Origin: Trichormus sp. M33_DOE_039
Lineage (GTDB): Bacteria > Cyanobacteriota > Cyanobacteriia > Cyanobacteriales > Nostocaceae
Direction of reading: 5' to 3'
Assembly: GCA_015296085.1 (NCBI GenBank)
Contig: DVDT01000098.1
Location: 1-64,000 of the forward strand
Length of the DNA stretch: 64,000 nt
Under the pieces are notes generated by a model, which was not told the DNA's origin, did no database searches, and worked only from the letters and a program-made list of their open reading frames with translations. The first letter of the stretch is position 1; each line of letters starts with the position of its first letter. Of the stretch, positions 5,001 through 20,738 are shown in pieces. The translations under genes were made by a program, and so were the position numbers.

Positions 5001-7456
5001 TAGGAGGTTTTATCCTGCACCGCAAATCTCACATTAAAGATATCCTGCCACTCTTGCAAGAGAGTTATGTGGCTAGTTTAGAAGTGGGTAGCACGAAGTT
5101 TGCTGGATACCATGCCCGTACCTTTTGTAACGCTTCTTTTTGGTGTAATCAGCCTCTTGCTACCTTAGAGCAGAATGCTCGTGCTTACTACAATGGTTTG
5201 ATGCAACTAAAGCAATTGGGACTAGCCAATCATTGTCGGCTTTCTTGGCAGTCTGCATTAAATTTGCAGGGGTTTGGGGAAAATCCCTGTATTCTATCTG
5301 GGGAAGCCGTACAAGAAACGGAAATTCTGCCGCAGCTAATGTCTGATAATGATTTGAGCGAGTTGTATGTGTTCTATTCATATAAGCTAATGCTCTGCTT
5401 CTTGTTTGGAGAAATTGAACAAGCTCAAAATTATGCTATTGAGTGCGGTCGCTATTTCATAGCTGCTAAGGGACTAGTATACGAACCTACGTTTTATTTC
5501 TATGATTCTTTGACTGCTCTAGCAGCTTTGAATTTGCAATTGGAAGTGGCATCAGAAGTATGGCAAAGGGTAGAGCATAACCAGACTCAGCTACAACAAC
5601 ATTGGGCGCGCTATGCTCCGATGAATTATCAGCATAAGATTGATTTGGTAGAAGCAGAAAAATGTCGAGTATTAGGAAAAAAGGCCGAAGCCATAGAGTT
5701 TTATGACAAAGCGATTTCTCTAGCCAAAGCTAACGAATATATGCAAGAAGAAGCACTTAGCAATGAGTTAGCTGCTAAATTTTACCTCGAATGGGGCAGA
5801 AAACGCATAGCTGGGGAATATATGACCGAAGCTTACTATGGTTATGCTCGTTGGGGAGCAAAAGCCAAAATCGCCGACTTAGAACGCCACTATCCCCAAT
5901 TACTTGCTCCCATATTGCAGCAAAAACGTTCTTCCCTTTCCTTTAGCGAAACTATCTTCGCCTTGGAGAGTTTTACCTCCACCAGTACCACCACATCCAC
6001 CAGTAGCAGTGTTTCTTATTCTTTGGATTTAGCTGCCATTCTGAAAGCTTCTCAAACTATCTCAGGGGAAATCGAACTGGAAAAACTCCTTTCGTCGTTG
6101 CTTTCTATCGTCATCGAAAATGCGGGAGCAGATAAGTGTGTATTAATGCTGATGGAATCAGAGCAATTACAGATTCGGGCATTAGCAAAGCTGGAGCTAG
6201 AGAACAAAGGAAATACCAAAGTTAATTTTTCTCCCAGGCTGACTAATCCACAACCTCTTGAAGAGTCTATTGATGTACCAATTGGCTTAATTAATACCGT
6301 TAAACGCAGCTTAGAACCAGCAGTCATTGTTGATGCTAGTGTCAATTTACAATTAATTGATGACTACTACATTCAGCAACAGCTACCCAAGAGTATTTTA
6401 TGTAGCCCGATTTTGCATCAAGGCAAATTGATGGGCATTTTATATCTAGAAAATAATTTAACCACAGGGGCGTTCACAAGCGATCGCGTAGAACTTCTCA
6501 ATTTGCTGTGCGCTCAAGCAGCGATTTCTTTAGAAAATGCCAAACTATTTCATGAAAGTAAACAAGCGGAACTTTCCTTACAGCAAAAATCGCTCTTATT
6601 AGAACAAGCATTACATAACTTACAAAACGCCCAATTACAAATTATCCAAAGTGAGAAAATGTCTGCTTTAGGAAACTTAGTTGCTGGGGTGGCTCACGAA
6701 ATGAATAATCCTTTGGGCTTCATTTTTGCCAGTCTCCAACAAACTAAACCTACTATTAATGATGTTGTTGAACACTTGCAATTGTATCAACAAACTTTCC
6801 CAAATGCCAGTGAGGAAATAATTGACCATGCTCAAGAAATTGATTTGGAATATATCTTAGATGACTTACCAAATGTCATTGATTCGATGACTATGGCGTG
6901 TGACAGACTCAAAAGTATCAGTACCAGTCTCCGCACCTTCTCTCGTGCTGACAAAGATTATAAAGTACCATTTAATATTCATCAAGGCATTGATAGTACT
7001 ATTCTCATTCTCAAACATCGTCTCAAGGCTAATGAACAACGTCCCGCTATTGAAGTAGTTACTAACTACGGAAACCTGCCTCAAATTGAATGTTTTCCTG
7101 GTCAATTAAATCAGGTATTTATGAATATTTTGGCAAACGCAATTGATGCCTTAGAAGAATCAAATTGCCAACAAAATTTTGAGGTAATCCAAGCTAATCC
7201 CAACCGCATTACTATCACAACTTCACTCGCAAATCATCTTGTTAAAATTGCCATTCTAGATAATGGTAAAGGGATGAGTGAAGAGGTAAAACAAAAAATA
7301 TTTGACCATTTATTCACTACGAAAGCTGTGGGTAAAGGAACTGGGTTAGGGCTGGCGATCGCCCGGCAAATAGTTGAGGAAACCCACGGTGGCAAATTGT
7401 ATTGTAATTCTGTCCTGAGCCAAGGGACAGAATTTATCATTGAAATTCCGATGTAA
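2003..7456 (+). CDS. Trifunctional Ser/Thr kinase - AAA ATPase - GAF - sensor histidine kinase
   Basis: This 1817-residue protein has the domain order of the cyanobacterial Hstk family. An N-terminal Hanks-type kinase (about 10-275) has the catalytic IHKDIKPSN loop near residue 130, an IDF in place of DFG, and SPEQ in place of APE. An AAA_16-type ATPase has Walker A GFSGIGKT near 332 and LDDLQWAD as the Walker B region. A long helical TPR-like middle (about 600-1300) follows. A GAF domain lies at about 1340-1515. The C-terminal histidine kinase has the phospho-acceptor in GVAHEMNNPL (about 1562), N box NILANAIDAL and G boxes DNGKGMS and GKGTGLGLA. No membrane segment is evident, so it is probably a cytoplasmic sensor. 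No response regulator gene lies beside it. Its histidine kinase core closely resembles that of the five-GAF kinase at 20838-24371. The signal is unknown. Confidence 0.93.
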   Translation: MISTLVNIPGYRINEELYNGSRTLVYRGYRETDSLPIVIKLLKNSYPTFNELLSFHNQYTIVKNLNSSLIVQIYSLEIYQNGYILVMEDFGGMSLKEWLVNGKQQSLQEFLEIAIALCNTLNILYRERIIHKDIKPSNILINPETKQVKLIDFSIASLLPRETQTLVNPNVLEGTLAYISPEQTGRMNRGIDYRTDFYSLGVTFYELLTGELPFTASEPMELVHCHIAKTAPLVHEINPEIPSVLSKIVSKLMAKNAEDRYQSALGLKCDLEKCLHQLKIGDQITSFEIAQKDICDRFIIPDKLYGREAEVSTLLQAFERVSLGATEMMLVAGFSGIGKTAVVNEVHKPIVRQRGYFIKGKFDQFQRNIPFSAFVQAFRDLIAQLLTENDAQIQQWKNKILDALGENGQVIIEVIPELAIIIGQQPQAIELSGTSAQNRFNLLFQKFTQVFTSSEQPLVIFLDDLQWADSASLKLIQLLMADTGRLFIIGAYRDNEVYPGHIFMLTLSEIQKKPVKFQTITLTPLSQLQINYLVADTLKCKENLASNLSALIYQKTHGNPFFATQFFKALNQDRLIQFDLELGCWQCDIAQVKTQAVTDDVVNFMVLQLRKLLPTTQEILQMAACIGNQFDLATLAIVLEQSEIETATNLWEALQEGLIIPISDVYKFYQGEEHQQLGLSNIHKQLAKYKFLHDRVQQAAYYLIPEDQKQTTHYHIGQLLLQQISPAAREDHIFEIVNQLNHGTALINQQTQRDELAQLNLIACRKAKNSTAYQAAGEYAAIGLSLLGEKAWQQQYEMTLTFHELAAEVASLCGEFEVMEQLINTVIAQANSLLEKVNVYCIRIQSYVFQNKPVEAIDIGQKLLQQFGVMFAESLTPVDIQQSIQEIKELIGDREIADLVDLPEMKDLEILAIIQIASSLIPPAYNSGSLLCPLLIALSVKLSIQHGNTIASAFSYANYGTILCNLLQDVDTATKFGHLSLQIISKFDAKAIKPEVLLVLGGFILHRKSHIKDILPLLQESYVASLEVGSTKFAGYHARTFCNASFWCNQPLATLEQNARAYYNGLMQLKQLGLANHCRLSWQSALNLQGFGENPCILSGEAVQETEILPQLMSDNDLSELYVFYSYKLMLCFLFGEIEQAQNYAIECGRYFIAAKGLVYEPTFYFYDSLTALAALNLQLEVASEVWQRVEHNQTQLQQHWARYAPMNYQHKIDLVEAEKCRVLGKKAEAIEFYDKAISLAKANEYMQEEALSNELAAKFYLEWGRKRIAGEYMTEAYYGYARWGAKAKIADLERHYPQLLAPILQQKRSSLSFSETIFALESFTSTSTTTSTSSSVSYSLDLAAILKASQTISGEIELEKLLSSLLSIVIENAGADKCVLMLMESEQLQIRALAKLELENKGNTKVNFSPRLTNPQPLEESIDVPIGLINTVKRSLEPAVIVDASVNLQLIDDYYIQQQLPKSILCSPILHQGKLMGILYLENNLTTGAFTSDRVELLNLLCAQAAISLENAKLFHESKQAELSLQQKSLLLEQALHNLQNAQLQIIQSEKMSALGNLVAGVAHEMNNPLGFIFASLQQTKPTINDVVEHLQLYQQTFPNASEEIIDHAQEIDLEYILDDLPNVIDSMTMACDRLKSISTSLRTFSRADKDYKVPFNIHQGIDSTILILKHRLKANEQRPAIEVVTNYGNLPQIECFPGQLNQVFMNILANAIDALEESNCQQNFEVIQANPNRITITTSLANHLVKIAILDNGKGMSEEVKQKIFDHLFTTKAVGKGTGLGLAIARQIVEETHGGKLYCNSVLSQGTEFIIEIPM

Positions 7457-7495
7457 GTAAAGCTGGGAGAGGGCAGGGGCAAGGGGAAAGAATGG

Positions 7496-7518
7496 AAGAG
7501 GGTTTCATCCCTCTTTTA
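7496..7518. terminator. Probable bidirectional terminator
   Basis: AAGAGGG, a 6-base loop and CCCTCTT form a perfect 7-bp stem followed by TT. It lies between the convergent ends of the giant kinase gene and the halogenase gene, so it could serve both strands. The T-tract is short, so efficiency is uncertain. Confidence 0.55.
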
Positions 7519-7521
7519 TTA

Positions 7522-9450
7522 CTAAGCAGGTAGCCAAGTGTGTAACCAACTGTCTCGGCGTTTGGTAAAGTCATGGAGCAAATCTGGTCGTGTTTCCCGT
7601 AAGCATTGCAGGGCTTGGTGTTGGGGCATAGCGGTGCTAGCCATACCTTGGAGAATTGCCATTTGGCGTTTCCAGGTGGCTGCATCTTCTACAGTTTCTA
7701 CAAAGCGGGTGGCTACTTTTTGTCCCATTAACAAGGTGTCATAAGAGTGATCGTCAGAGAAGAACTCTGGCGGATGCACTGTATAAAAGAGGGAATTGCG
7801 GTAAGACAGGGGCGCACGTTCCTGAAATAAGGCTATTCGTTCAGCTGCGCCAGAAATATCTGTGTCTTGATTGGCTGCTTGCCAAAAGGGCGTGGAGAGA
7901 CGGCGATTGAATTTGTAGTGAATGCCCAAAAACCAGCGCAGGGCATCCCAACGTTCGTTAATTTTACGGTTAAGTGTAGATTTAATTCCCTCATCCCGTT
8001 TTGAGGCTGGTAAGTTGTTCATTAGAAGTTCCAATTCCAGAACAATCATATGTAGGGCTGTTGATTCTAGCGGTTCGACAAAGGCGTAGGAATTACCGAT
8101 CGCCACAACGTTACCTTTCCAAAAATGCTCATGTCGTCCCGAACGAAATTTGACTACCCAAGGTTCACCCATTCCCGGATTTTTAGCCCGCATTTCTGCT
8201 AATGCTTGGTCAACGCTACAAAATGCGGAGGAAAATACATAGCCTCGATGGTCGGCATCTTCAAAGGGTATATTCCAGCACCAACCATTGTTCATGGTTT
8301 CCGCTAAGGTGTAAGGCTTAATAGTGCCGTTATGGGGGACAGTAGCAGCGATCGCCTGATCGGTGAAAAGTGTATCCTGGTAACTGACAAATTTTGAGCC
8401 AAGTTTCTGTTCTAGTAAGAAGGAACGGAAGCCAGAACAATCAATATATAAGTCGTAAGCTAGTTTGCGTCCATCTTCGGTGATTAAATGGGTGATGCTT
8501 TCACCATCGGGAGCAAGTTGAGCATCACAAATCTGCACATCTAGATGATCAATTCCGGCGGCGATCGCTTCTTCTTTTAAATAGCCAATGAATCGCCGAT
8601 TATCCAGATGATAAGCCCAGCGAATCAGGTGCAGTAAGGATAATGGCTTGCCATCACCCTGATCAAAAATGGGGGCGCGATCGCTATTCATTAACATCGC
8701 CCCCAAGGATTGATTGTTTAAAGTTGCATCATAGAGGAATGATTCTAGCAAGCGTCCGCGTTGAAACGGAAATGTAAAATTGTAATCATCGGGTAGTCCC
8801 CACTGAAATTTAATTCCCAGTTTCCAAGTAGGAGCAACCCGCCGATAAAAATCAACGATATCCAGCCCTAAAAATCGGGGACTGTGGAGAAACTTCACCA
8901 GTTCGGGAGTTGTGGCTTCTCCCACACCAATTACTGGGATAGCACTTGATTCTAGCAGTGTCACCTTAATATCTGGATGGAAAGCCCGAAACGCCAAAGC
9001 CGCCAAATATCCAGCCGTTCCACCACCTAAAATCCCCACTGTTTGGTAACTATCGGCGGCTGGACGGATTTTTGCTTGCAAAGGATTCGGCCAAATTCGA
9101 CCGATTTCCTCAGCCGCAGAGGCGATCGCATTTCGTTCCAACATTCCCAGAGGAGCATCTAATTGCGGTGTACACTGCTGACATTCAGCACTGGGCAATA
9201 GTCGCTTGACGATGCGATCGCCCTTGCTGTCAATTTTGACTACACTAGTGGCGCGGGTTGGCGTGGAATGAGCCAAAACTGCGATCGCTTCTTCCAAACA
9301 AGCCTGCACAATAGAAGGGGAAAGTGGGGGTGTGGGGGTGTGGGGGTGTGGGGGAAAGGAGGGGGGTTGACAGTTGTGGCAAGATCTCCTGTAATCCTGA
9401 TGGAATTTCTGCCAAGGTGACGATTCGACAACCAAAACAGGCTGTTGCAC
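7522..9450 (-). CDS. Flavin-dependent (tryptophan-type) halogenase, 3' part of a frameshifted E1-halogenase fusion
   Basis: In this 642-residue frame the authentic part begins just after a proline-rich repeat (about residue 45). Residues 50-95 complete the preceding E1-like domain and include the CQQC of its zinc tetracysteine site. The halogenase follows: FAD-binding GGGTAG (142-147), GVGEAT (175-180), GIKFQW with the expected catalytic lysine (K214), the GWCWNIP signature (389-395), and EPLEST (459-464) with the expected catalytic glutamate. Family members use reduced FAD, oxygen and chloride or bromide to chlorinate or brominate an indole or other aromatic ring; a separate flavin reductase is needed. 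Fusion to a leader-binding E1-like domain suggests the substrate is a peptide-bound residue rather than free tryptophan (inference). The upstream half is the overlapping frame at 9245-10165. Confidence 0.85.
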   Translation of the reverse strand: MQQPVLVVESSPWQKFHQDYRRSCHNCQPPSFPPHPHTPTPPLSPSIVQACLEEAIAVLAHSTPTRATSVVKIDSKGDRIVKRLLPSAECQQCTPQLDAPLGMLERNAIASAAEEIGRIWPNPLQAKIRPAADSYQTVGILGGGTAGYLAALAFRAFHPDIKVTLLESSAIPVIGVGEATTPELVKFLHSPRFLGLDIVDFYRRVAPTWKLGIKFQWGLPDDYNFTFPFQRGRLLESFLYDATLNNQSLGAMLMNSDRAPIFDQGDGKPLSLLHLIRWAYHLDNRRFIGYLKEEAIAAGIDHLDVQICDAQLAPDGESITHLITEDGRKLAYDLYIDCSGFRSFLLEQKLGSKFVSYQDTLFTDQAIAATVPHNGTIKPYTLAETMNNGWCWNIPFEDADHRGYVFSSAFCSVDQALAEMRAKNPGMGEPWVVKFRSGRHEHFWKGNVVAIGNSYAFVEPLESTALHMIVLELELLMNNLPASKRDEGIKSTLNRKINERWDALRWFLGIHYKFNRRLSTPFWQAANQDTDISGAAERIALFQERAPLSYRNSLFYTVHPPEFFSDDHSYDTLLMGQKVATRFVETVEDAATWKRQMAILQGMASTAMPQHQALQCLRETRPDLLHDFTKRRDSWLHTWLPA

Positions 9451-10165
9451 CCCGAATCACTGTCGGGCCAATGAGTGCGGTTTCTGGGGAAGCTGTGACA
9501 AATAAACACGGTGTGCCACTGGCTAAGGCTGATTGATTGATATCGAAAAGGGCTTGATAGGGTACACCTTCTAAAGCACAAATTACAAAGTCGAATTCTG
9601 AGAACATTTCACAGAGTCGAGAAACAGTCACAGCATCTAAATGGGGCGTGAGATTTTCCTCATAGCCGTTGAAAAGTATCCATTTTTGCTGGAGAGCGAG
9701 AAATTCTGGTGTTTGACAGGATGCAAAATCTGTGAGTGTGAAAGCTTGGCAGTTTTGCAACCCTGCGGTGGTAAAAGTTTGAGTGAGAGTAGCCAGTAAT
9801 TGGTGATTGCCTAAAATAGCGATCGCTTTTTGCCGGATGTGATGGGGGACTGTTGGCAATTGGAAGTTCTGATTTTGGGGTGTGGCTTCAGTTACCAATG
9901 CTTCCTCCAAAACGCGGAGTTTAATTAAAGCTGAGATGATCTCCTGTAGGTAGCGACGATTATACCTGTCGGAGAGTTCAGTATAAATCGCCTCAAGCGA
10001 TCGCACACCATCAATTAGCGTCACCAACTCCCGGATAGTATCAGGTTGAATACCTTCAAGGACGAATACGTCATTACCTACCCAACTACAAACCTCACCG
10101 GATGGGTTCAGAAGCAAATGAGCATTGGGGTTGATGCGAAGTATGGGGGAAAGATTGTTTATCAT
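9245..10165 (-). CDS. E1-like / TOMM leader-peptide-binding protein, 5' part of the frameshifted fusion
   Basis: The likely start is the ATG at 10165 (MINNLSPILRINPN); a start 11 codons further upstream would only add hydrophobic residues. The first 90 residues look like a winged-helix RRE (RiPP recognition element) of the TOMM cyclodehydratase C-type proteins. Next comes a Rossmann-like, ThiF/E1-derived domain (KAIAILGN..., FDFVICALEG) and CFGC, one half of a zinc tetracysteine. The other half, CQQC, is in a different frame downstream (7522-9450). The last 30 codons of this frame, after the 8-bp repeat at 9324-9354, look out of frame. So one gene of about 880 codons has been split by a frameshift. 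No YcaO partner is in the window, so the role is more likely leader binding for the fused halogenase than azoline formation. Confidence 0.75.
   Translation of the reverse strand: MINNLSPILRINPNAHLLLNPSGEVCSWVGNDVFVLEGIQPDTIRELVTLIDGVRSLEAIYTELSDRYNRRYLQEIISALIKLRVLEEALVTEATPQNQNFQLPTVPHHIRQKAIAILGNHQLLATLTQTFTTAGLQNCQAFTLTDFASCQTPEFLALQQKWILFNGYEENLTPHLDAVTVSRLCEMFSEFDFVICALEGVPYQALFDINQSALASGTPCLFVTASPETALIGPTVIRGATACFGCRIVTLAEIPSGLQEILPQLSTPLLSPTPPHPHTPTFPFYCAGLFGRSDRSFGSFHANPRH
9324..9354. repeat. 8-bp tandem repeat (TGTGGGGG) at a frameshift
   Basis: Nearly four copies of TGTGGGGG lie exactly where the coding frame changes between the E1-like and halogenase parts. Because the unit is 8 bp, gain or loss of one unit shifts the reading frame. 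The same unit occurs at 13752-13788 and in degenerate form at 51203-51240, so it belongs to a dispersed repeat family. Confidence 0.85.
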
Positions 10166-10363
10166 TAAACTAAGTAAAAATATCAGTATAAAAACCAAAA
10201 ATTAAAACTTTTTTACACTCAAATTAGGCTATGAAAATTGTTTGCCCCTAATCTTATCAGTAGATACTGTGCCTGCTTCTTAAATAAGTTAAAAATTTTT
10301 CCCTAACGGAAGGCAAATCGGATAGGATTTTTTGACAGTATTTTAGATACGGAAATAACAATA
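10166..10363. promoter_or_regulatory. Divergent promoter region of the peptide-modification locus
   Basis: This 198-bp A+T-rich gap separates the leftward E1-halogenase gene from the rightward MBL-LanB-MBL operon, so it must carry the start signals of both arms. No operator sequence is recognisable by eye. Confidence 0.45.
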
Positions 10364-12196
10364 ATGCGTGTCACTATCTGTGGTCATGCTGCTTTATATA
10401 TCGAAACTATTGATCAACGCATCTTGCTTGATCCCTGCTTCGCTGATGAACTAGTTGGTGGGACACTCACCTACTATCCTGGTCGTGTGTTTGAATTGGA
10501 TAAACTGCCCAACCTGACGGCTGTGGTGGTGACACATGGACACTTCGATCACTTTCATCGCCAAACCCTAGAAAAACTTTCTCGTGAACTGCCTATAATT
10601 ACTGCCGATGAGCCGGAACTAGTCACACAGCTCCACCAAATGGGATTTGCCGATGTGAGAGTTTGTCAACCTTGGGGTGCGATCGCACTCGGAGAAACTC
10701 ACTTACTCCCTACGCCTTCCGATCATGAAGAACCAGAGTTTGGTCTGGTGGTGCGGGATGCCACAGGTACATTTTGGCACATGGCAGACGCAGAAGTGAC
10801 AGTGGAAATTAGCGATCGCCTCACCCAAGTTTATGGTGCTATTGATCTGATTTCCACTAAGTATCAGCCAGTAGTCCGCGCTAGCATGGGCTATCAACAC
10901 GGTATGGGAGCAACGTTTGATCGGGAAGGGGTAGTTAGTTGGCTAGAAGCGGCTTGCGCCTGCAACCCTCGTGTAATCTTCCCTTACGCCTCTGGGCTTT
11001 GTTTTAGTGGTCGTCACGCCTGGTTTAATCGTTATGCGTTTCCCTTAAGCGCAGAGGAAACAGTGAGCTTGCTGCAACGTCGCCTTGGTTCACCAGAGAG
11101 AGCAACAACAGTGCGTCCAGGTGATGTAATTGAACTGCAAGCCGGACAACATCCCCAAAGACATGAACAAGCAGCCGATTTCGTCAAAGTGAAACCATCT
11201 GAGGCGTTACGTTGGGAACCGGTTGATCTCAGCACCCTCATGGGACTATCCACACCAGAAGCACGGCGTAGCCTGCAAGGAAAACTAGAGGTATTACTCA
11301 CCAGCAAGCTGTTACCCTGGCTCAGACACATAGTTAAACAGCCTGACACCATTTGGACAAAGTTTTCCTCAGAGCAAGTGGTTTGGCAATTGGTAATTCA
11401 CACTGGGGATGGTGAAAGGCTGAATTACGCCATTGATTTTCGCTCCCAGGATTTTGCTGTGATGTCTGGTGAACATCCAGAAGCCAATTTCTTTACTCAC
11501 ATTGCAGGACAAGCTTTAGACGAGGTGATGACTGACCAAAAACCAGGGCTAATTTTTTGGCTGGCTGGGGAGGTGCGTAGTTACGAAAAGGTGATTTGTA
11601 TCCGTAATGGTCGATTTGAGCCGCCGCAGTGGCCGAATAAACCAGAAGATTTCCCCTCAGATCCCTTAACTTACTATCTCCGTCGTGTTGGGACTGGAGA
11701 AATTGCTGTTGATCAAAATGATTTAGATAATATCCATCTCGAAAAAGTACCGACATCTCTAGAAAGTACCGATGATCTACAAATTCTGATGCGTCTGGGT
11801 GAAAACGACAGAGTAATCAGCAAAAAAGTCCTCTTGGCTTATTTAGCGGTGAAAGAAGCAGAACGTTTGGGTTTGAATATTTCTGATGCAGAAATTCAAG
11901 CCATGTCTGACTCATTTCGAGAGCAGTTTGATTTGCAAGATAGCGACGCGACAGAGGAATGGTTAAAAGCAGCCGGATTGAGTCTAGAAGCATACTCCGC
12001 CGTCATGCGAGATTTCACCGCCGTTCTGAAGTTGGAACAACATTATACAAGCGTGATTGAACCTTGGCTGGCTAATCATCGCCGTGTAGCTACAGCTCGT
12101 TATGCGCGATCGCGTCCTGACTCACTAAACAAAGTGAGTTCGACAAATGAAAAAACCCCTCTCCAAACCTCTCCCCTACAAGGAGAGAGGCTTTGA
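10364..12196 (+). CDS. MBL-fold metallohydrolase with C-terminal SurA/PpiC-like helical domain
   Basis: A 610-residue protein. The N-terminal 260 residues are a UlaG-like metallo-beta-lactamase fold with THGHFDHFH at 57-65, the metal-binding HxHxDH motif. A middle part (about 285-430, with LNYAIDFRSQDF and GLIFWLAGE) looks like an SCP2-type domain. A C-terminal helical domain (about 470-580) resembles the N-terminal helices of SurA/PpiC isomerases, a domain also seen in proteins linked to peptide maturation. The last roughly 20 residues are encoded by a dispersed repeat (12151 onwards) and are probably not functional. It is the first gene of a three-gene + strand operon with the LanB-like gene and a second MBL protein. 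The substrate is unknown; peptide or thioester hydrolysis is possible. Confidence 0.75.
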   Translation: MRVTICGHAALYIETIDQRILLDPCFADELVGGTLTYYPGRVFELDKLPNLTAVVVTHGHFDHFHRQTLEKLSRELPIITADEPELVTQLHQMGFADVRVCQPWGAIALGETHLLPTPSDHEEPEFGLVVRDATGTFWHMADAEVTVEISDRLTQVYGAIDLISTKYQPVVRASMGYQHGMGATFDREGVVSWLEAACACNPRVIFPYASGLCFSGRHAWFNRYAFPLSAEETVSLLQRRLGSPERATTVRPGDVIELQAGQHPQRHEQAADFVKVKPSEALRWEPVDLSTLMGLSTPEARRSLQGKLEVLLTSKLLPWLRHIVKQPDTIWTKFSSEQVVWQLVIHTGDGERLNYAIDFRSQDFAVMSGEHPEANFFTHIAGQALDEVMTDQKPGLIFWLAGEVRSYEKVICIRNGRFEPPQWPNKPEDFPSDPLTYYLRRVGTGEIAVDQNDLDNIHLEKVPTSLESTDDLQILMRLGENDRVISKKVLLAYLAVKEAERLGLNISDAEIQAMSDSFREQFDLQDSDATEEWLKAAGLSLEAYSAVMRDFTAVLKLEQHYTSVIEPWLANHRRVATARYARSRPDSLNKVSSTNEKTPLQTSPLQGERL

Positions 12197-12260
12197 AAGC
12201 TGGATTTTTTGTCGAAACATAGGCAGATTTAAGCCCCTTTTCGTATTGGAGAGGGGTTGA
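12151..12260. repeat. Dispersed palindromic repeat element
   Basis: CCCCTCTCC...CTACAAGGAGAGAGG followed by ...AGCCCC...GGAGAGGGG forms nested inverted arms. The same motif appears at 29939-30061 and 52424-52516. It provides the stop codon and 3' tail of the MBL gene ending at 12196 and fills most of the gap before the LanB-like gene. Confidence 0.75.
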
Positions 12261-12289
12261 GCAGAGGTTCATCGAATTCACGTTAAACA

Positions 12290-14629
12290 ATGAATAATCC
12301 GCAGAGATTTGAGTTTGCCCCTGCTGGTATTTTGCGGGCTGCGGCTTGGCCAATTGAAAGGATTCAGAGTTTTGGTAATCAAAAACTTGCAAAATTAGCA
12401 CTTGCAGCCAGCAGCAGCAACGATGCTCACACCTGGAAGGAATATACAACCGCCTATCAACAGGTACACGAACAAGAACGGGAACGACTGTGGCAAATTA
12501 CCGCAGGCGATTCTTGGTTTATGAAAGCCCTGGTGTTGTCGAATCCGTCTCTTGTCACAGAGGTACAGCGTGGATTAGCACTCAGACAAGGAAAACGGAC
12601 AAAAAAAATTCGGCATCTAGAAACAACAATGTATCGTTACCTAGCAAGGGCGGCGGGACGTACCACACCCTATGGTTTATGGGCTGGTGTGGGTTTAGTC
12701 GAGTTTGGCAAGACAGCACAGCAGAAATCCGCCAAGGCGCAGTATTCCTTTACACCAGATTTGCGTCCCTGGCAAACGATATTGAAAGCGATCGCCCAGC
12801 GTCCCCAATATCGTCAAACCTCCACTTGGCGATTAAACCCCACCTTAAAGCGGCTAGCAGATGGTTCTTGGCAATTTTGGGGACGAACGCCCAAGGGATT
12901 AGTCGAACAGCGTGAGATCGATTCCCAAGCAATTGTCGATATTCTCTTGGAGGAACTAACTACGCTAGAACTAGGAACATTAGATCAACTAGCTCAAACA
13001 GTAGCAGCCTCACCCCGTTGGAATTATGCGACCAAAATACAAGATATTCTGCATTTATTAATTGATGGGGGTGTGCTTGTAGGTGGGCTTGACTTACCCT
13101 ATCGATTTGCTAATCCGTGGGAAGCGTTAGCGGTAGTAGCTGACAAGCTAGTTGAGTCAGATCGTCATCTCTGGAATCAAGCTACTGAAAAAATACATCA
13201 CCTTTGTAATACTCTATCGATGCAACTTGAGATCATGTCTTTGGATGCGCTAGTAGAGTATCTCCAACAAGCAAAGGGATGTATTCAAAAACTTGCCCAA
13301 GATTTTGGTGTCGAACTCATACAGCTACCCGAACCAGTGCTGCACTGCGATTTGGGGCTACCGCTGCGAATCACCATTGATGAGGAGCAGCAAAATAGTT
13401 TACTGCAAACACTCCAAGACTATGAAGACTGCTGGATTCAAGGTCTTAGTCCCGCCTCAGCCCTGCGGATGGTGTTCCGTGAGCGACTGCAACAGGAATT
13501 TGCGGCAGGTGTTCCCCTCAGCGATCTCAAATCTAGCCTAGTTGGCGAAATGAGGACGGCTCATCGCCATTCCGCAGTTGTCACCCGGATAGCAGAGTGG
13601 GAAAGTTGGTTATCACACAATACAGAGGAAGTAGTTTTAGCAACTAGCAATTTGCCCAAGTCCTCTTTGTCTACAGCTCCTTGTGGTTGCTTGTTTGTGG
13701 GGTTATTTGCAGGAGACAAGAGACGGGAGGCAGAAAGTAATAGTTTTTCTTCCCCTACACCCCCACACCCCCACACCCCCACACCCCTAATTCATGGCGT
13801 TAGTGATGAGCCAGTACGATTCTTTGCCCGATTTAGTGAATTACTCAAGGGTGATAATGTACTGCATCCCTGGTTTCAAGAAAAGTTAAAAGATTTAGCA
13901 ACGCAACATCACATTCAGGTAGCAGAACTACAAACTCCCTTTGAGCGTAACCCCAATGTATTAGCTCGTCCCAACTTCGGGATGATGCCGATTGAGTTGT
14001 GGGGTGCAAGTGCTGATACACCATCCCTAGCTGATGCCAAAATTTTTATTGATTTCCAAACACAGCTACCTTTTTTGAAATTGCGATCGCTCCCCAAACC
14101 AGTGGTAGTATTTTGGTTTTCTCTGGGAGCGATCGCATCTAGCGACCCCATCTGTGAACAGTTACTTTGGACTACATTTCAAGATAACCCGATGGCGATT
14201 TTTCGCGCTGCCACACAGCCGATGCAGATGGAACTCACTGCACCCCGCTTTACTCCGCGTGTACGACTACCACAAAATGCTATTTTACGTCCACGTCGGA
14301 CAGTTTTGAGTGGGCAGACTTTAGCAGAACTAGCCCAATTGCCTGCAATGGAGCGTTTTGCTAAATGGCAGCAATTAGCGGCTGAATATAGCTGGCCGAT
14401 ACTGCTCAATCTGCAAATTGCGGGACAACATTCGCTCCTAGTACATCGAGATAGTCCCTTAGCCCTGGAATCCTTTTTCAAAAAAGACTTGCAAGCACAA
14501 ACCCCCTGGCTCATCGTTGAAGAATTAGTCAATCAACCCTGGCTAGTTGACTCCCAAGGAGAACATTACATGGCAGAACTAGCATTACCATTTACCCGCG
14601 CTCAACATGGATGGAGGGAATTGGTATGA
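12290..14629 (+). CDS. LanB-type protein without elimination domain (peptide aminoacyl-tRNA ligase-like)
   Basis: A 779-residue protein of the lantibiotic dehydratase N-terminal (glutamylation) family. RTTPYGLWAGVGL at 124-136 is the conserved R-x-TPFGL-F-A-G motif, and LRPRRTVLS and related blocks follow towards the C-terminus. It ends without a SpaB_C elimination domain, which in full LanB enzymes adds about 300 residues. Stand-alone proteins of this shape use aminoacyl-tRNA either to glutamylate Ser/Thr (split LanB) or to add an amino acid to a peptide C-terminus (PEARL enzymes). No separate elimination protein is visible nearby, which favours the PEARL interpretation (inference). An 8-bp repeat insertion (about residues 488-500, PTPPHPHTPTP) sits in frame in the middle. 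It overlaps the next gene by ATGA. Confidence 0.8.
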   Translation: MNNPQRFEFAPAGILRAAAWPIERIQSFGNQKLAKLALAASSSNDAHTWKEYTTAYQQVHEQERERLWQITAGDSWFMKALVLSNPSLVTEVQRGLALRQGKRTKKIRHLETTMYRYLARAAGRTTPYGLWAGVGLVEFGKTAQQKSAKAQYSFTPDLRPWQTILKAIAQRPQYRQTSTWRLNPTLKRLADGSWQFWGRTPKGLVEQREIDSQAIVDILLEELTTLELGTLDQLAQTVAASPRWNYATKIQDILHLLIDGGVLVGGLDLPYRFANPWEALAVVADKLVESDRHLWNQATEKIHHLCNTLSMQLEIMSLDALVEYLQQAKGCIQKLAQDFGVELIQLPEPVLHCDLGLPLRITIDEEQQNSLLQTLQDYEDCWIQGLSPASALRMVFRERLQQEFAAGVPLSDLKSSLVGEMRTAHRHSAVVTRIAEWESWLSHNTEEVVLATSNLPKSSLSTAPCGCLFVGLFAGDKRREAESNSFSSPTPPHPHTPTPLIHGVSDEPVRFFARFSELLKGDNVLHPWFQEKLKDLATQHHIQVAELQTPFERNPNVLARPNFGMMPIELWGASADTPSLADAKIFIDFQTQLPFLKLRSLPKPVVVFWFSLGAIASSDPICEQLLWTTFQDNPMAIFRAATQPMQMELTAPRFTPRVRLPQNAILRPRRTVLSGQTLAELAQLPAMERFAKWQQLAAEYSWPILLNLQIAGQHSLLVHRDSPLALESFFKKDLQAQTPWLIVEELVNQPWLVDSQGEHYMAELALPFTRAQHGWRELV
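13752..13788. repeat. 8-bp tandem repeat (CCCCCACA) inside the LanB-like gene
   Basis: About four units of the same 8-mer as at 9324-9354, in the opposite orientation. Here the frame stays open through it and encodes a Pro/His/Thr-rich linker. A change of one unit would shift the frame. Confidence 0.85.
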
Positions 14630-16131
14630 CACGTCGCAGATTAAGCAACAAAATTGGCTTTCAACTGATATATCAGGACGAAACAACATTCGGTAGTGCT
14701 GTTACAGGCAAATGTGACACTACGATCAGACGCTACTGCAACAGCATCATGGCACACCGCCAGCAATATGGACTCTCAGATGTAGTAGCGCACTCACGGG
14801 AATTGCTGGCGGCGACAATGACTCCCGGTGGTTTAGCAGATTTGTATGAGCGTCCTGGTGTACTGCGGGAAGATTGGCTTTACCCTGATACTAAAGCGGT
14901 GCAACCTGTAGCACTGCAAATAGAACGCAATATTGGTGAAAGGGTGGTCATTCTCGAATTATCTCCCCATCTCTTGTCCGATTTAGCTTTGTATTTAGGA
15001 GAATGGCAACAAGGGAGTGCTGCACCCACTACCAGCATTGCCCGTGAGTTATGGAATATATTAAATGACTATGGCGCACTGGTAGAAGCGACATTACCTG
15101 AACCATCTGTATTAGGTCATGCTACCTTTGTTGGTCACTCAACGCTGCGTCTGTGTGATGGTAAATCTAGCATCCTGTTTGATCCTTTCTTATTACCTAA
15201 GTCTGAAGTTTATCCGCCCAACTACCAGCCCCTGAGCCTAGAAGAACTAGGACAACCCCATGCCGTATTTATCACCCATTCCCATCCTGATCATTTCGAT
15301 TTAGGAACATTACTCAGAATTGGTGCTGACACGCCAATCTTTGTTCCAGAAGTGCAGCGCGAATCTGTATTAGCAATTGACATGGCTTTACGGTTACGTC
15401 AGTTAGGGTTTAACAATGTTCACACCCTCTGCTGGTTTAACGAACGGCAGATTGGGGGAATGCGAGTTATCGCCCTGCCATTCTACGGAGAACAGCCCAG
15501 CGTTGGGGAGGTACTACATCCAGAAATTCGCAATCAGGGCAATACCTATTTGGTAGAGTATGACCATCACCGTGTGGCACTAACAACCGATTCTGGCAGT
15601 GATTGCTTAGGGAATGTCAAAGGACTAGCAGACACAGCCAAAGATCATTATGGTTCTATTGATACTCTGTTTGGCGGCTATCGGGGTTTTGGACTCTATC
15701 CAATTCAGTATTTATTTTCCTCAGTTGCCCGATATCTGCCTTTTGTACCTGAGAAGATTTGGCAAGTTAGACAAAAAATGATGTGCGATGCCGATGATGT
15801 GATTGATGTCGCTGAAATCTGGAATGCTAAACGAATTGTACCGTACTCAGATGGTGGTGCGCCCTGGTTCTGGCAACGTGGGCTTGGCCCTTGCCTGGAT
15901 GGCTCACAAGCGCACATTATGGCAGTTGACCCCACACCAGAGTATGTTTGTCAAGTTGCAAATCAGCGTTCTGGGACTCGCAAAGATGGAGCGATCGCAT
16001 CTCCCGTATCGATTTGCTTGCTGCGCCCTGGAGATTCTTTAATATTTGCAGAAGAAGCAGATAAGTTAATAGTTGAAAATCAATCTTGGCCTTATGATAA
16101 TTTCTCAGCCTCTCAAAACACAAAATTTTAA
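14626..16131 (+). CDS. Second MBL-fold metallohydrolase of the peptide locus
   Basis: I chose the ATG at 14626 because it overlaps the upstream stop codon as ATGA and has GGAGGGA about 8 bases upstream; an in-frame ATG at 14611 is also possible. The protein has 501 residues. The first 160 or so are not recognised. They are followed by a UlaG-like beta-lactamase fold with ITHSHPDHFD (HxHxDH at about 218-223) and later metal-ligand candidates (TTDSGSD, PYSDGGAPW). It is translationally coupled to the LanB-like gene and so is very likely part of the same pathway. Two different MBL proteins in one peptide locus are unusual; one may cleave the modified product from its carrier peptide, but that is inference. 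Confidence 0.75.
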   Translation: MTRRRLSNKIGFQLIYQDETTFGSAVTGKCDTTIRRYCNSIMAHRQQYGLSDVVAHSRELLAATMTPGGLADLYERPGVLREDWLYPDTKAVQPVALQIERNIGERVVILELSPHLLSDLALYLGEWQQGSAAPTTSIARELWNILNDYGALVEATLPEPSVLGHATFVGHSTLRLCDGKSSILFDPFLLPKSEVYPPNYQPLSLEELGQPHAVFITHSHPDHFDLGTLLRIGADTPIFVPEVQRESVLAIDMALRLRQLGFNNVHTLCWFNERQIGGMRVIALPFYGEQPSVGEVLHPEIRNQGNTYLVEYDHHRVALTTDSGSDCLGNVKGLADTAKDHYGSIDTLFGGYRGFGLYPIQYLFSSVARYLPFVPEKIWQVRQKMMCDADDVIDVAEIWNAKRIVPYSDGGAPWFWQRGLGPCLDGSQAHIMAVDPTPEYVCQVANQRSGTRKDGAIASPVSICLLRPGDSLIFAEEADKLIVENQSWPYDNFSASQNTKF

Positions 16132-16252
16132 TATATAAAAGAGAAAAATATGATTAATAAGTTAAGATACCAATTTAAAAAACAATTTTAAAATATTAAT
16201 GCACAAAACCAAATTGCGAAAATAAATTCACAAACTAAAACCCAAAATTATA

Positions 16253-16486
16253 TTACCTATTAGGTAGTAAATAAAAACCACGAATACCCCCACCAGCAGT
16301 AGTCTCTGGTGTGCCTCTATTTGGTGCAATAAAGGGTTGACCAGGTTTTGGTTGTGAGATTTTTGGCACAGATGTTACACCAAATTGAGATGCTGTACTT
16401 GCTTTTGTGGATATACCATAAATTAGAGATAATCCTATCAAAATAGACACTGATGTAACACTTAAAATTTGATTCACCCTATTCAT
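16253..16486 (-). CDS. Small secreted protein with a DUF928-like motif
   Basis: With the start at ATG 16486 (AAGGG upstream) the product has 77 residues. It has a clear Sec signal peptide (about 1-30, VTSVSILIGLSLIYGIS) and a Pro/Gly-rich remainder with RGTPETTAGGGIRG near the end. That motif resembles the beginning of DUF928, a family of secreted cyanobacterial proteins, so this may be a truncated relative. It lies downstream of the transporter gene on the same strand. A signal peptide argues against it being the RiPP precursor of this locus, though it is the only small gene between the biosynthetic and transport genes. Confidence 0.55.
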   Translation of the reverse strand: MNRVNQILSVTSVSILIGLSLIYGISTKASTASQFGVTSVPKISQPKPGQPFIAPNRGTPETTAGGGIRGFYLLPNR

Positions 16487-16668
16487 AATATTATCAACCC
16501 TTGCTATTAATAAACACAAAACCATGTTGCAGAGATGCAAGATATTGCTCCCCACATGAGTGCATATTTCGTATGAGTGAAAATTGCTATATATTTAAAC
16601 TCACCAGATAGACAAGGTTTTACGCAAAAGCCAGCTAACAGTCATCAGTCAACATTTTTCCCAAATCC

Positions 16669-19326
16669 CTAAACCATCTGTCTCGCCATCAAATCAGCAA
16701 ACAACCCTTTCTCTTTCATTAAGTCCTCAAACTTGCCTTGCTGGACAACTCGACCGGCTTCAATTACATAGATTTTATCGGCGTTGCGAATAGTGCTGAG
16801 GCGATGAGCAATGACTATACGCGTTACTCCTAAATTGTCTAAGCTCTCACTGACTATAGCTTGGGTACGATTATCTAAAGCACTCGTAGCTTCATCAAAA
16901 ATCAGAATTCTCGGTTTTAATACCAAAGCACGGGCTATTAATAATCGCTGTCTTTGTCCACCAGACAGATTTGTCCCACCCTCAGAAATGACTGTGTGCA
17001 TCTCCATTGGCATTAATTGAATGTCATCAGCAAACCCGGCCATGCGTGCAGCTTCCCAGGCTTCTTCCATTGTCACTAATGCGCCGCTAGAAATATTTTC
17101 AAAAATTGACGCGCTATTAATCCGCCCATTTTGCAAGACAACACCAATTTGCCGCCGTACCGCAGATATATCTAACCCGGATAAGTCCTGACCATCGTAG
17201 TAAATTGTCCCGTCTTTTGGTGTTTCAAATCCCAACAACAGCCTGATAATCGTAGATTTACCGCTACCAGAAGGCCCTACTAAGGCGATAAATTCTCCAG
17301 TTTCGGCTTGAATTGTCACATCATCTAAATTCAGGGGGCCGTCTTCTCGATAACGGAAGGTGACGTGATCAACTTTGATTTTACCTGTTAATCGTCCTGG
17401 ATCGCTTTTGCTGAGGTCAATTTCTGGTTGAGCCTGAAAAATAGGCTTGGCTCGCTCCCAAAAAATGCTGATATCTAATATGCTGACTATGGTATTACTG
17501 AGTTGTGCTGCTCCAGCAATAAATATGGTAAAGGCTGAGTTAAATGCTAAAAATGTCCCTGTAGATAATCCTGCATTGCTTGGAGTAGAGTTTTGGGTAA
17601 TTAACGTCACTGCCAACCAAAAGATAATCATTGAGCTAACGGTTGGCATGACAGTATTAAATATAGCTAAGATATCTTCGATTAATTCTGTACTTAATTT
17701 GAGTTTTAGCTGCTGACTATACTTTTTTGCCCAATAAGCAAAGGCGCGTTCTTCTGCACTGGCAATTCGGAGTTTTGACACGCCAGCAACCATCTGTACT
17801 GTGAAACCAAAAATATTACCTTCGATTTCTTCTAGAGACCTCAACTTTTGGCGGGTGAGTATACCAGAGACAGCAGTAAAGATAATCGTCGCCAACGCTA
17901 CTGCTACTACCACTAAAGCCAAGCTAGAACTGTAGACAAATAACAATCCTAAGTTCAGCAGAGAGAAAAAACTGGTGAAAATTGTCCGTAAAATTGTATC
18001 GCTGAGTTTCTGACGGATTTGGGTGATAGCGGAAACACGAGATTGTAAATCCCCAATGGAATACTGACGAAAAAAAGATACCCGCAGATTAAATAATCTA
18101 TCCCAAAGGGCGGCTTGGGAATCTAAACTAGCTTTGCTTTCTAATCTTAAGCTGGCAAATCCTTGAGCAGTTTGAAAAATCATCGTGCCGAAGCTGGCTG
18201 CTAAAAGACCTAAGCCGATCTGCACTAATAAGCCTCGGTCGGCATCGGGAATGGCAGAATCAATAAGAATGGCAGTGGCAAAAGGAGTTAACATCCCTAA
18301 CAAGGAAGCGACTATACCTGTGAGGAGGATAATCAACAGTTCTTTGATTTGTCCTTGGAAGGCAAACTGTAGTAGATCGGTTGCAGTTAAATTCTGGTCG
18401 GGGAGGGGACGATAAAATACATAGGCGAAGGGAGATAATGTTCTATTAGTATTATTATTTACAGGGATACGAGTGTGATTTTCTGGGTCGAAAATTTCAT
18501 ATTTTCCTGAACCTACTTGCAGGACTGCTACTGGGCGATTGTCTTTATGTGTATATGCCAATAATGGCCCAGTATCTTTTTGCCACCATTTATCATTGAG
18601 TAATACCCGCCGTATCCGAATACGCGATGCACGCGCGATCGCCTCTAATGGTTCTTTAATCCGGTTCATGTCTTCAGAACGTGCTGGAGGCAAAATCTTG
18701 ATTCCTAAGGCCTTCCCTACTGCGCCTGCGGCAATTAACAAGGGTGTCCCGGCTTGAAAAAGTTCCGCTTTTTGGGGTTTGAGGACTGATGCTAAATTAC
18801 CTAAAGCACTAACTGTCACCTGAGAGTTTAGTTGTTCCCGTGCTTGGAATTGCTGCCATTTGGCAGCTAACTCTGCCTGTTCTATCTGCATGAGAATTTG
18901 GCAGAAATCACCATGCAATTCATTTAGCGTTACTTGGATGCTGTCCCAATTACTCAGCTTTTCAGCATGGGAGAACACAGGGGGAATTATCCATCTATCC
19001 CCCACACAATTACAGATGTTTTTTTCCCAAGTTTGCACCAACCCTAGAAAATTTGCGGCTTCATCTTGACTCCAATTATCTGTAGTTAGTTGCCACAGTA
19101 CAGTCTCTTCCATAGCTATAGCCAAGATTTTATGCGTCTTAGCAGCTATGCCAAACAATGCTTCCCCGGTGTTGACGGTGAACAGATAACGCCGTATCCC
19201 CTCAATCCCTTGGTGGATGGGAATAGCAAATAGTGCGATCGCACCCGATTCAATCTGCCAAACTGTTTGAGGGTCGTCTAAGATCAGGGACTGATTACCT
19301 GTAAGCAGTAACTGAGAATCATTCAT
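16669..19326 (-). CDS. NHLM-type bacteriocin/peptide export ABC transporter (permease-ATPase)
   Basis: An 885-residue protein. The first 330 or so residues form the NHLM-specific soluble N-terminal region. An ABC transmembrane domain follows (about 340-620, with several strongly hydrophobic helices such as LLIILLTGIVASLLGMLT). The ATPase domain comes last, with Walker A GPSGSGKST (about 684), signature LSGGQRQR (about 789), Walker B LIFDEATSALD and the H-loop IAHRLST. There is no N-terminal C39 peptidase, so this corresponds to the peptidase-free subunit; the peptidase-bearing partner is not in the window. Transporters of this family export ribosomal peptides with nitrile-hydratase-like or Nif11-like leaders. 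It faces the MBL-LanB-MBL operon tail to tail. Confidence 0.88.
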   Translation of the reverse strand: MNDSQLLLTGNQSLILDDPQTVWQIESGAIALFAIPIHQGIEGIRRYLFTVNTGEALFGIAAKTHKILAIAMEETVLWQLTTDNWSQDEAANFLGLVQTWEKNICNCVGDRWIIPPVFSHAEKLSNWDSIQVTLNELHGDFCQILMQIEQAELAAKWQQFQAREQLNSQVTVSALGNLASVLKPQKAELFQAGTPLLIAAGAVGKALGIKILPPARSEDMNRIKEPLEAIARASRIRIRRVLLNDKWWQKDTGPLLAYTHKDNRPVAVLQVGSGKYEIFDPENHTRIPVNNNTNRTLSPFAYVFYRPLPDQNLTATDLLQFAFQGQIKELLIILLTGIVASLLGMLTPFATAILIDSAIPDADRGLLVQIGLGLLAASFGTMIFQTAQGFASLRLESKASLDSQAALWDRLFNLRVSFFRQYSIGDLQSRVSAITQIRQKLSDTILRTIFTSFFSLLNLGLLFVYSSSLALVVVAVALATIIFTAVSGILTRQKLRSLEEIEGNIFGFTVQMVAGVSKLRIASAEERAFAYWAKKYSQQLKLKLSTELIEDILAIFNTVMPTVSSMIIFWLAVTLITQNSTPSNAGLSTGTFLAFNSAFTIFIAGAAQLSNTIVSILDISIFWERAKPIFQAQPEIDLSKSDPGRLTGKIKVDHVTFRYREDGPLNLDDVTIQAETGEFIALVGPSGSGKSTIIRLLLGFETPKDGTIYYDGQDLSGLDISAVRRQIGVVLQNGRINSASIFENISSGALVTMEEAWEAARMAGFADDIQLMPMEMHTVISEGGTNLSGGQRQRLLIARALVLKPRILIFDEATSALDNRTQAIVSESLDNLGVTRIVIAHRLSTIRNADKIYVIEAGRVVQQGKFEDLMKEKGLFADLMARQMV

Positions 19327-20183: not shown

Positions 20184-20738
20184 TTATTTTGTGTCCAGGG
20201 CGATCGCTATCTCACTTTCATGATGCCAATCTGATCGGTTCATGCGATAAACGCAGCAGTCATCATCACCAAATCTTCGAGACTCAACAAATTTAAACCC
20301 AAGACGTTCATAGAAGCGGTGGACACGGGTATTACTCGCCAGTGGATCGACAAGTACAGCCGTCACCAGCGGGTCAGCAAAACATCGAGCAAATGCAAGC
20401 TGCATCATTTCCGTTCCATAACCTTTACCCAAATCAGTCTCTTCCCCAATCCAAATATCGATAGCACGAAGATTCGTCGGAACATCGCCCCAGTAGTGAC
20501 TATCTTCATTTGCTGGATCAATGATCTGAATAAATCCAATGGGACGACCATCAATTTCAGCAATCAACTGCTCTCTCCATTCGGGGGTGCGGTCAAGTTC
20601 TACTTCCCAACCCCAGTCATCATTAGGATCGGATTCAATTACATGCGGTTGCTCATCCCAATGTCGCAGTAGATCTAAATCAGCGGAAGTAGCAGGGCGG
20701 AGTTTTATCCCGATCGCAGGTGGCGGGGTATAGTTCAT
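20184..20738 (-). CDS. GNAT acetyltransferase of the AAC(6')/IucB-like group
   Basis: 184 residues of the GNAT fold. The segment IDIWIGEETDLGKGYGTEMM contains the acetyl-CoA-binding Q/RxxGxG-type loop, and DPLASNTRVHRFYERLGFKFV is the classic C-terminal motif of the Acetyltransf_8 group that includes aminoglycoside 6'-N-acetyltransferases. Chromosomal members in environmental bacteria often have other substrates, so resistance activity is not implied. It is a single gene with its own start, near the end of the five-GAF kinase gene on the same strand. Confidence 0.8.
   Translation of the reverse strand: MNYTPPPAIGIKLRPATSADLDLLRHWDEQPHVIESDPNDDWGWEVELDRTPEWREQLIAEIDGRPIGFIQIIDPANEDSHYWGDVPTNLRAIDIWIGEETDLGKGYGTEMMQLAFARCFADPLVTAVLVDPLASNTRVHRFYERLGFKFVESRRFGDDDCCVYRMNRSDWHHESEIAIALDTK

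Follow-up and report, generated by a model that had tools for sequence, protein, structure and literature searches.

A putative two-part RiPP cluster of Nostocaceae with a tryptophan halogenase joined, in relatives, to a leader-binding-type domain

Genes of the window and of contig C64

The window analysed here is the stretch of bases 1-64000 of contig C52 in the 7.0-Mb, 116-contig genome of Trichormus sp. M33_DOE_039 (G000), and it carries between positions 7522 and 19326 genes for a flavin halogenase, a LanB-type protein, two metallo-β-lactamase-fold (MBL) proteins and an NHLM exporter. An initial annotation of this DNA had proposed that these genes serve a pathway of the type of ribosomally synthesised and post-translationally modified peptides (RiPPs), and gene calls place its open reading frames (ORFs) at the positions it gave. 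Window proteins were assigned by gene calls and profile scans (Pfam, NCBIfam) and compared with those of a set of eight Nostocaceae genomes that bear a fusion of an E1-like domain and a halogenase. The set consists of the window genome, in which the fusion is split, and seven relatives with a full-length ORF: Nostoc sp. FACHB-152 (L021), Nostoc sp. CMAA1605 (L022/L027, G391), N. calcicola (L023), a Nostoc metagenome-assembled genome (MAG; L024), G338, G498 and G434. The genomes of L021, L023 and L024 (G394, G395 and G396) were equated with G530, G479 and G511 on matching contig numbers and coordinates, and G391 with CMAA1605, since L022 falls inside L027.

The halogenase is encoded on the reverse strand by a 642-aa ORF (7522..9450) that matches PF04820 with an E value of 1.5e-112 and has the flavin adenine dinucleotide (FAD) motif GILGGGTAGY and, intact as initially annotated, the motifs GIKFQW and GWCWNIP, the last of the WxWxIP form seen in MibH-type enzymes of the Trp_halogenase family. 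The N-terminal part of this ORF is the tail of an E1-like domain with the second of two CxxC pairs (CQQC). The front of the same ancestral gene, like an E1 domain or a RiPP recognition element (RRE) and with the first pair (CFGC), is a 317-aa ORF in another frame (9245..10198, reverse strand), 68-72% identical to residues 3 to 275-281 of five fused ORFs. What had been annotated as an E1/RRE-halogenase fusion is therefore not a single reading frame in the window, since at a CCCCACA-type repeat (9325..9354, reverse strand) the linker measures 79 nt (1 mod 3) and the halves are out of frame, but it is a single ORF of 880-896 codons in 7/7 relatives. A profile of six fused relatives finds as best solved match the chlorinase MibH (5uao, 579.6 bits; next 275.4), and its E1 region matches MccB (E 4.5e-5). 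The leader-binding model TIGR03882 (TOMM E1-like) scores 13.2 bits in the window and 13.0-29.9 bits over seven proteins, below its cut-off of 36.9, the PqqD model matches weakly (E 0.015-0.12) in five of the seven proteins scanned, and both CxxC pairs are invariant in six aligned fusions. Active ThiF enzymes have a Gly-rich ATP loop. Because the fusion of the Nostoc MAG reads ILGNHQLL at the position of this loop, the E1 domain is taken as a probable scaffold.

Three genes follow on the forward strand. The first, MBL1 (10364..12196), has the motif HGHFDH and matches PF12706 (E 1.3e-13). Its C-terminal region resembles TIGR04500, a PpiC-related family of peptide maturation (E 4.6e-9; 36 bits against a cut-off of 180), and its solved relatives are ambiguous (3rpc, E 1.4e-6; 8a90, E 4.5e-5). 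The second gene (12290..14629) encodes a protein of 779 residues that is indeed of the LanB glutamylation type, as had been claimed, and not of an unrelated family (PF04738 Lant_dehydr_N, E 2.9e-26); it matches 9g04 (residues 37-152, E 4.7e-6), MibB (5ehk) and NisB over a short N-terminal region. The third, MBL2 (14611..16131), has the motif HSHPDH. On the reverse strand lies NHLM_micro_ABC2 (16669..19326), an export ATPase/permease with no peptidase domain, for which TIGR03797 gives 1015.4 bits against a cut-off of 709, in agreement with the exporter call.

MBL2 is better read as a likely CmlA-like di-iron oxygenase than as a hydrolase. Its best solved relatives are the di-iron monooxygenases 8a90 (E 2.8e-11) and CmlA (4jo0, E 2.1e-9), with the hydrolase 3rpc behind them (E 2.5e-5). 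In addition to HxHxDH, it has at the CmlA position a glutamate, Glu294, which is invariant in five sequences and aligns with a CmlA Glu replaced by Asp in chain 5kil; we take this CmlA residue to be a ligand of the metal cluster. The NCBIfam match, a generic metal-dependent hydrolase at 28.9 bits, far under its cut-off of 144, counts against the oxygenase reading. Of the two MBL hydrolases claimed initially, the fold and the motifs stand for both, whereas the hydrolase function is doubtful for MBL2.

The initial annotation saw no YcaO and no precursor gene, which holds within its coordinates, but both are encoded on another contig of the same genome, C64 (L050); their apparent absence reflects the limits of the window and its contig. 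C64 carries adjacent genes for TfuA (1188-2831; PF07812 over cut-off) and YcaO (3062-4270; PF02624 over cut-off), for which the narrower models remain below cut-off (NF033432, 196.9 bits against 235.2; TIGR03266, 213.2 against 365). These are followed by an ORF for a Nif11-type precursor (4462-4824; TIGR03798, 25.6 bits, E 1.1e-5, under its curated cut-off of 32.3), which the initial annotation had suggested looking for in the flanking genome, by a separate elimination-type protein of the Lant_dehydr_C family (5288-6151; TIGR03891, 72.6 bits, cut-off 48.45) and by a Cupin_8/JmjC protein (6249-7268). In relatives, TfuA, YcaO, the precursor ORF and the Lant_dehydr_C protein are encoded near the fusion.

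In the window genome the precursor leader ends with LSEEELESVAGG and is followed by a 14-residue core, AAVREGSSTIMCCW, ending STIMCCW; examples from relatives are LASSTVKETVMCCW and LASSDSPKSTIMCCW. All eight fusion genomes have a Nif11-like leader of the form ...LSExELESVAGG, with its Gly-Gly site directly before the core, and in all eight the precursor ends T[IV]MCCW, so that MCCW is common to the whole set. YcaO and TfuA are likewise present in 8/8. The Cupin_8 protein is encoded near the precursor in seven of the eight and is missing near that of G498. Beside TfuA, three relatives also have a 405-aa JmjC_2 protein (PF08007; L024 12428-13645, L054 9322-10539, L110 13307-14524), and two of the three have the Cupin_8 protein as well; one RRE survey notes that fish and algae have RRE-JmjC fusions.

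The LanB protein was described as lacking an elimination domain. This is true of the protein itself, but the PF14028/TIGR03891 protein on C64 provides a candidate partner. LanB and this protein are read as a split dehydratase, with glutamylation and elimination as two proteins, because they match N- and C-terminal parts, respectively, of the full-length LanB 9g04 (elimination protein: residues 791-881, E 0.0038). The elimination-type gene adjoins the precursor in 7/8 fusion genomes, and PF14028 proteins number one per Nostoc genome searched (6/6). No LanC-type cyclase was noticed in the loci read, although no search was aimed at LanC.

Co-occurrence in Nostocaceae and state of the window strain

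Family-wide searches covered 217 Nostocaceae genomes, which partly overlap with order- and phylum-wide samples of 386-388 genomes. Seven of the 217 have the full-length fusion, and the window genome has it in split form; TfuA occurs in 13, among which are all eight fusion genomes (Fisher p 1.2e-11, a value that assumes independent genomes although these are related). LanB is present in 8/8 fusion genomes and in 0/5 other TfuA genomes, and MBL1, LanB and MBL2 lie together in the seven genomes whose locus was read; the LanB gene of FACHB-152 stands on a different contig. The suggestion that halogenase, LanB, MBL and transporter genes might be conserved together thus holds for the first three and less constantly for the transporter (ABC2 in 5/8). 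Further strong cases were found neither order-wide (388 genomes, E up to 1e-100) nor in a phylum-wide LanB sample (386 genomes). A phylum-wide sample of 386 genomes gave no further strong precursor case either; G039 (E 4e-4) and G131 (E 2e-4) gave weak matches to the profile of the precursor, at leader positions only.

The five remaining TfuA genomes show a related arrangement. An MBL1-like gene, 21-26% identical, lies near TfuA in 5/5, and in four of these genomes (G388, G019, G404 and G454) an unfused halogenase gene is found about 5 kb from TfuA. Nif11-like precursor ORFs of this second cluster type (L106-L109) end in Trp in 5/5 cases, as CSQW, CGQW or GPW; the one in L107, the only one checked against Pfam, is a Nif11 protein (PF07862, E 1.3e-8). 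In G492, the fifth, TfuA and the MBL1-like gene are present with no halogenase in the 19.9 kb read, and a nearby Nif11 ORF ends IHIVVE, i.e., in Glu. These precursor ORFs come from a motif pattern or from a list of the ORFs of one gap, and more may exist. Within this small related set, a C-terminal Trp goes with the presence of a halogenase.

Fusion genomes usually encode a second halogenase, Hal2, of 500-501 aa and about 39% identity; in six of the eight its gene overlaps that of the fusion at the latter's start. Its profile also finds MibH first (5uao, 484.4 bits; next 277.7), so that MibH leads the next-best solved relative by about 200-300 bits for both halogenases. In G498 Hal2 is truncated to 183 aa, and a genome search did not find it in the window genome. 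Because of this absence, halogenation in the window strain may be impaired. The halogenation arm of this strain is incomplete, with hal2 not found and the fusion split, and its product may carry no halogen, or a halogenase polypeptide that stands alone may make it.

It is a serious possibility, falling a little short of probable, that the window strain holds a decaying remnant from which nothing functional is made, the cluster having been split, hal2 deleted and the fusion frameshifted. The linker is 1 mod 3 in this strain alone (0 mod 3 in the six relatives measured, the ORF of G434 being open), hal2 was not found, the precursor half is on another contig, and no ABC1 or HlyD gene occurs in the 5 kb beyond ABC2. 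Nevertheless, the genes for the precursor, YcaO, TfuA, LanB, MBL1 and MBL2 have uninterrupted reading frames, and another NHLM ABC1 is encoded in the genome (C84). Neither fusion part shows a sign of relaxed constraint in the window strain. The ratio of nonsynonymous to synonymous substitutions (dN/dS) between the window and seven relatives is 0.05-0.10 for the halogenase domain (0.04-0.10 in pairs of intact genes) and 0.17-0.24 for the E1 part (0.21-0.36); these values derive from the simple Nei-Gojobori method, with many dS near or above 1, and are hence rough. Because both parts keep a low dN/dS, the split is likely recent or tolerated, or else an assembly error in the repeat.

The repeat itself could act as a switch in which CCCCACA slippage toggles the halogenase fusion (window) or LanB (CMAA1605), an idea we regard as very improbable. 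A second CCCCACA-type repeat lies inside LanB (13752..13788, forward strand), in frame in the window and out of frame in CMAA1605 (L027), where LanB is two ORFs. The exact 19-mer form occurs at four places in the 7.0-Mb genome, two of them in the cluster, and each of these two is out of frame in one strain. Still, the repeat is absent from the fusion site in five of the eight fusion genomes (L021, L023, L024, G498 and G434), and the comparison comprises one genome per species and one exact repeat form. The pattern is palindromic in reading, and its built-in count control is uninformative.

The exporter also requires separate consideration, since its position could be coincidental and ABC2 part of a DUF928-CHASE2 operon: CHASE2-cyclase and DUF928 genes adjoin ABC2 in all four relatives' loci in which ABC2 lies near other cluster genes (L026, L027, L053 and L056). 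ABC2 falls inside the stretches read in five of eight genomes (G000, G338, G391, G479 and G511) and outside those of G498, G434 and FACHB-152. In G338, G479 and G511, however, the block lies near genes for a C39-bearing ABC1 (TIGR03796), HlyD, a cNMP-binding NHLM protein and RiPP enzymes, and ABC1 and ABC2 are both inside the stretch read in 3/4 second-type TfuA-halogenase loci, which makes a coincidence unlikely. ABC1 occurs further along the contig in G391 and G434, only elsewhere (C84) in the window genome, and not near the loci of G498 and FACHB-152.

Proposed pathway and relation to known systems

The window probably holds the second half of a two-part RiPP cluster, the first half of which lies on C64, and the predicted product is a small chlorinated or brominated peptide, a Nif11 RiPP that is thioamidated and/or contains azolines, is dehydrated and is halogenated at Trp. 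The sequences themselves show the gene set, the precursor, the co-occurrence, the conserved C-terminal residues and the split frame; the chemical steps are all inferred. In this pathway, the RRE/E1-like domain, which relatives have as part of the halogenase itself, would bind the Nif11 leader (LSEEEL, ending VAGG). Dehydration of the invariant core Thr, and perhaps of Ser, would then fall to LanB together with the separate elimination protein, and YcaO-TfuA would form one or more backbone thioamides and/or thiazolines, most likely at the Cys-Cys beside the terminal Trp. The MibH-like halogenase, usually together with Hal2, is predicted to halogenate the C-terminal Trp, possibly twice, while the CmlA-like MBL2 and the Cupin_8/JmjC proteins may hydroxylate the peptide. 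Finally, the NHLM exporter (C39-bearing ABC1, HlyD and ABC2) would cleave after Gly-Gly and export the product. The earlier proposal of a halogenated peptide made in cyanobacteria by a RiPP-type pathway is supported in outline, and so is a leader-binding-type domain joined to the halogenase, with which it forms a single ORF in 7/7 relatives.

Several observations weigh against this pathway. The matches behind the RRE and E1 assignments are below threshold, and AlphaFold models are poor for both the fusion (mean pLDDT 38.4) and MBL2 (mean pLDDT 29.6). The match of the elimination protein to 9g04 is weak and ranks under a spurious repeat-protein match, and in G498 no elimination protein lies near the precursor, whose locus is separated from LanB and the halogenase by more than 2 Mb. 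The two halves of the window genome's cluster are on separate contigs. Hal2 reads GWCWQID where the usual motif ends in IP and has the MibH-type motif only in part. The cluster has no conserved flavin reductase, and an FMN dehydrogenase was not noticed, although no dedicated search was made for either. The Trp counts are not independent, because both precursor groups come from one bacterial family, and lesions in three of the eight fusion genomes (G000, G391 and G498) suggest that the pathway is often lost. Moreover, likeness to MibH is no proof of a peptide substrate, because Amm3 clusters with MibH and yet acts on a small molecule, according to the available text of PMC12424672.

The initial annotation pointed to a scaffold-peptide pathway of the peptide aminoacyl-tRNA ligase (PEARL) type, in which a LanB-like protein extends a scaffold peptide with amino acids taken from aminoacyl-tRNA, a halogenase modifies them and a small molecule is released. 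The pathway to 3-thiaglutamate is of this type and uses a LanB without elimination domain, and a PEARL would share the same glutamylation fold. The LanB of the window lacks an elimination domain too, and ammosamide biosynthesis, as far as PMC12424672 is available, combines PEARLs with a MibH-like halogenase. This reading loses support, because the separate elimination-type protein makes LanB part of a split dehydratase: it is encoded beside the precursor in most fusion genomes, and its window-genome copy scores well above the TIGR03891 cut-off. In contrast to PEARL pathways, the terminal Trp is genetically encoded and YcaO-TfuA is present throughout the set. A releasing protease of the TldD/E type was not noticed in the loci read, though it was not searched for as such. 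Judged by gene content, LanB would not act here on a scaffold peptide without an elimination partner, and the PEARL reading is unlikely.

For the preferred reading, a Nif11 RiPP with a modified C-terminus, the closest published logic, by analogy, is that of the srp cluster. There the precursor, the proteusin SrpE, has the core LCCCW, the YcaO protein SrpC makes thiazolines from Cys and SrpI brominates the C-terminal Trp (PMC10858898, available part). The two systems share an extended leader that contains L(X)4L and Gly-Gly, a run of Cys by the C-terminal Trp (LCCCW and MCCW), YcaO and a flavin halogenase (as described in that part of PMC10858898). The cluster would work like srp and is not filed as a member of it, because it has a Nif11-like leader instead of an NHLP (proteusin) leader and a sub-threshold E1/RRE-like domain. 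In relatives this domain is fused to the halogenase, whereas SrpI is without an RRE and the srp cluster encodes none, within what PMC10858898 makes available. Further features without counterpart in srp are the usual second halogenase, TfuA, the split LanB, and the MBL and Cupin/JmjC proteins.

Other systems share single elements. MibH, the chlorinase of microbisporicin (NAI-107), is the closest solved halogenase by sequence (580 bits with the fusion profile, 484 with that of Hal2), but its 541-aa chain aligns along residues 27-530, which leaves no room for an E1 domain, and it acts after leader removal and is described as leader-independent (PMC10858898, same portion). The mpp cluster of Moorena, with the brominase MppI and the precursor MppE, likewise joins a cyanobacterial Nif11 precursor with a brominated Trp; it differs in its LanM instead of LanB, in a gene list without TfuA and in a Trp inside the core (ACWRWSG), not terminal (PMC11791876, in the part available for both points). 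Thioamidated RiPP clusters with YcaO and TfuA can also use Nif11-type precursors, and 18 unique cyanobacterial TfuA clusters, some with Nif11-like precursors, are reported in the available text of PMC8120280, in the main text of which, so far as available, 'halogen' does not occur; the present cores end in CCW and come with halogenases, a split LanB and MBL proteins. Thiopeptide and goadsporin clusters combine a split dehydratase with YcaO and a leader-binding partner of the ThiF/E1 type (PMC8120280, within the same text). In contrast to these, the E1-like domain is here fused to the halogenase (in relatives), the leader is Nif11-like, and with a single PF14028 protein in each Nostoc genome searched no separate [4+2] enzyme is seen, although the sole protein could be of that type.

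The feature that seems to be new is a halogenase that carries a putative leader-binding-type domain of its own, usually beside a second halogenase. Neither of two RRE surveys yielded a fusion to a halogenase: 'halogen' is not found in the main text of PMC7470986, and 'halogenase' appears in PMC12710340 only in the reference list. No description linking YcaO-TfuA and Trp halogenation in one cluster was found in the open-licence literature; the nearest is a sponge-metagenome survey that mentions halogenases as well as TfuA-like enzymes as modifying enzymes in its RiPP clusters but does not assign the two to a single cluster in the available text of PMC9426513. Tentatively, and with more doubt than confidence, the genes may represent an undescribed Nostocaceae RiPP class in which a leader-binding halogenase and a second halogenase dihalogenate a ribosomally encoded C-terminal Trp by thioamidated or cyclised Cys, and in which a ribosomal peptide is the substrate of a CmlA-type di-iron MBL oxygenase. 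The fusion of a halogenase to a leader-binding-type domain would, if confirmed, make leader-guided halogenation portable by design, and the cluster would link YcaO-TfuA chemistry to Trp halogenation. The short core makes the prediction testable by mass.

Related loci and neighbouring genes

Loci of the second TfuA-halogenase type contain further enzyme genes. L106, the locus scanned for these families, carries genes for a radical S-adenosylmethionine (SAM) protein and a 2-oxoglutarate (2OG)-Fe(II) oxygenase, and ORFs of like size and place occur in L107-L109. An FAD-binding oxidase-type gene is found in L108, the locus scanned for it, with a like ORF, by size and place, in L109.

A plasmid origin of the fusion was considered and rejected: a tblastn search with the fusion of the Nostoc MAG against 72,556 plasmid records returned 90 records, none at 80% query coverage, the best being 43.7% identical over the halogenase part only. 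Outside the family, an acidobacterial MAG (L025) has a lone fused E1-halogenase of 899 aa (8993-11692). No LanB or MBL match lies near it in 21.6 kb, and no convincing precursor was seen in positions 7001-13500 among 40-160-aa ORFs that have a GG close to their end; further PF14028 and YcaO genes lie on other contigs of that genome.

Between MBL2 and ABC2, a small ORF (16253..16555, reverse strand) without family match resembles the N-terminus of DUF928 proteins (31-34% identity) and is perhaps a remnant; it is kept at this place in three genomes (66% identity in L022/L027 and L026). Beyond ABC2, positions 20184-20738 encode a GNAT acetyltransferase (PF13523 over cut-off; AAC(6') likenesses far under NCBIfam cut-offs). 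On the other side, next to the cluster, lies a gene for 1817 aa (2003-7456) that reads like a Ser/Thr kinase-histidine kinase, and a counterpart of 61% identity is found near the cluster in the Nostoc MAG (L056 13940-19378).

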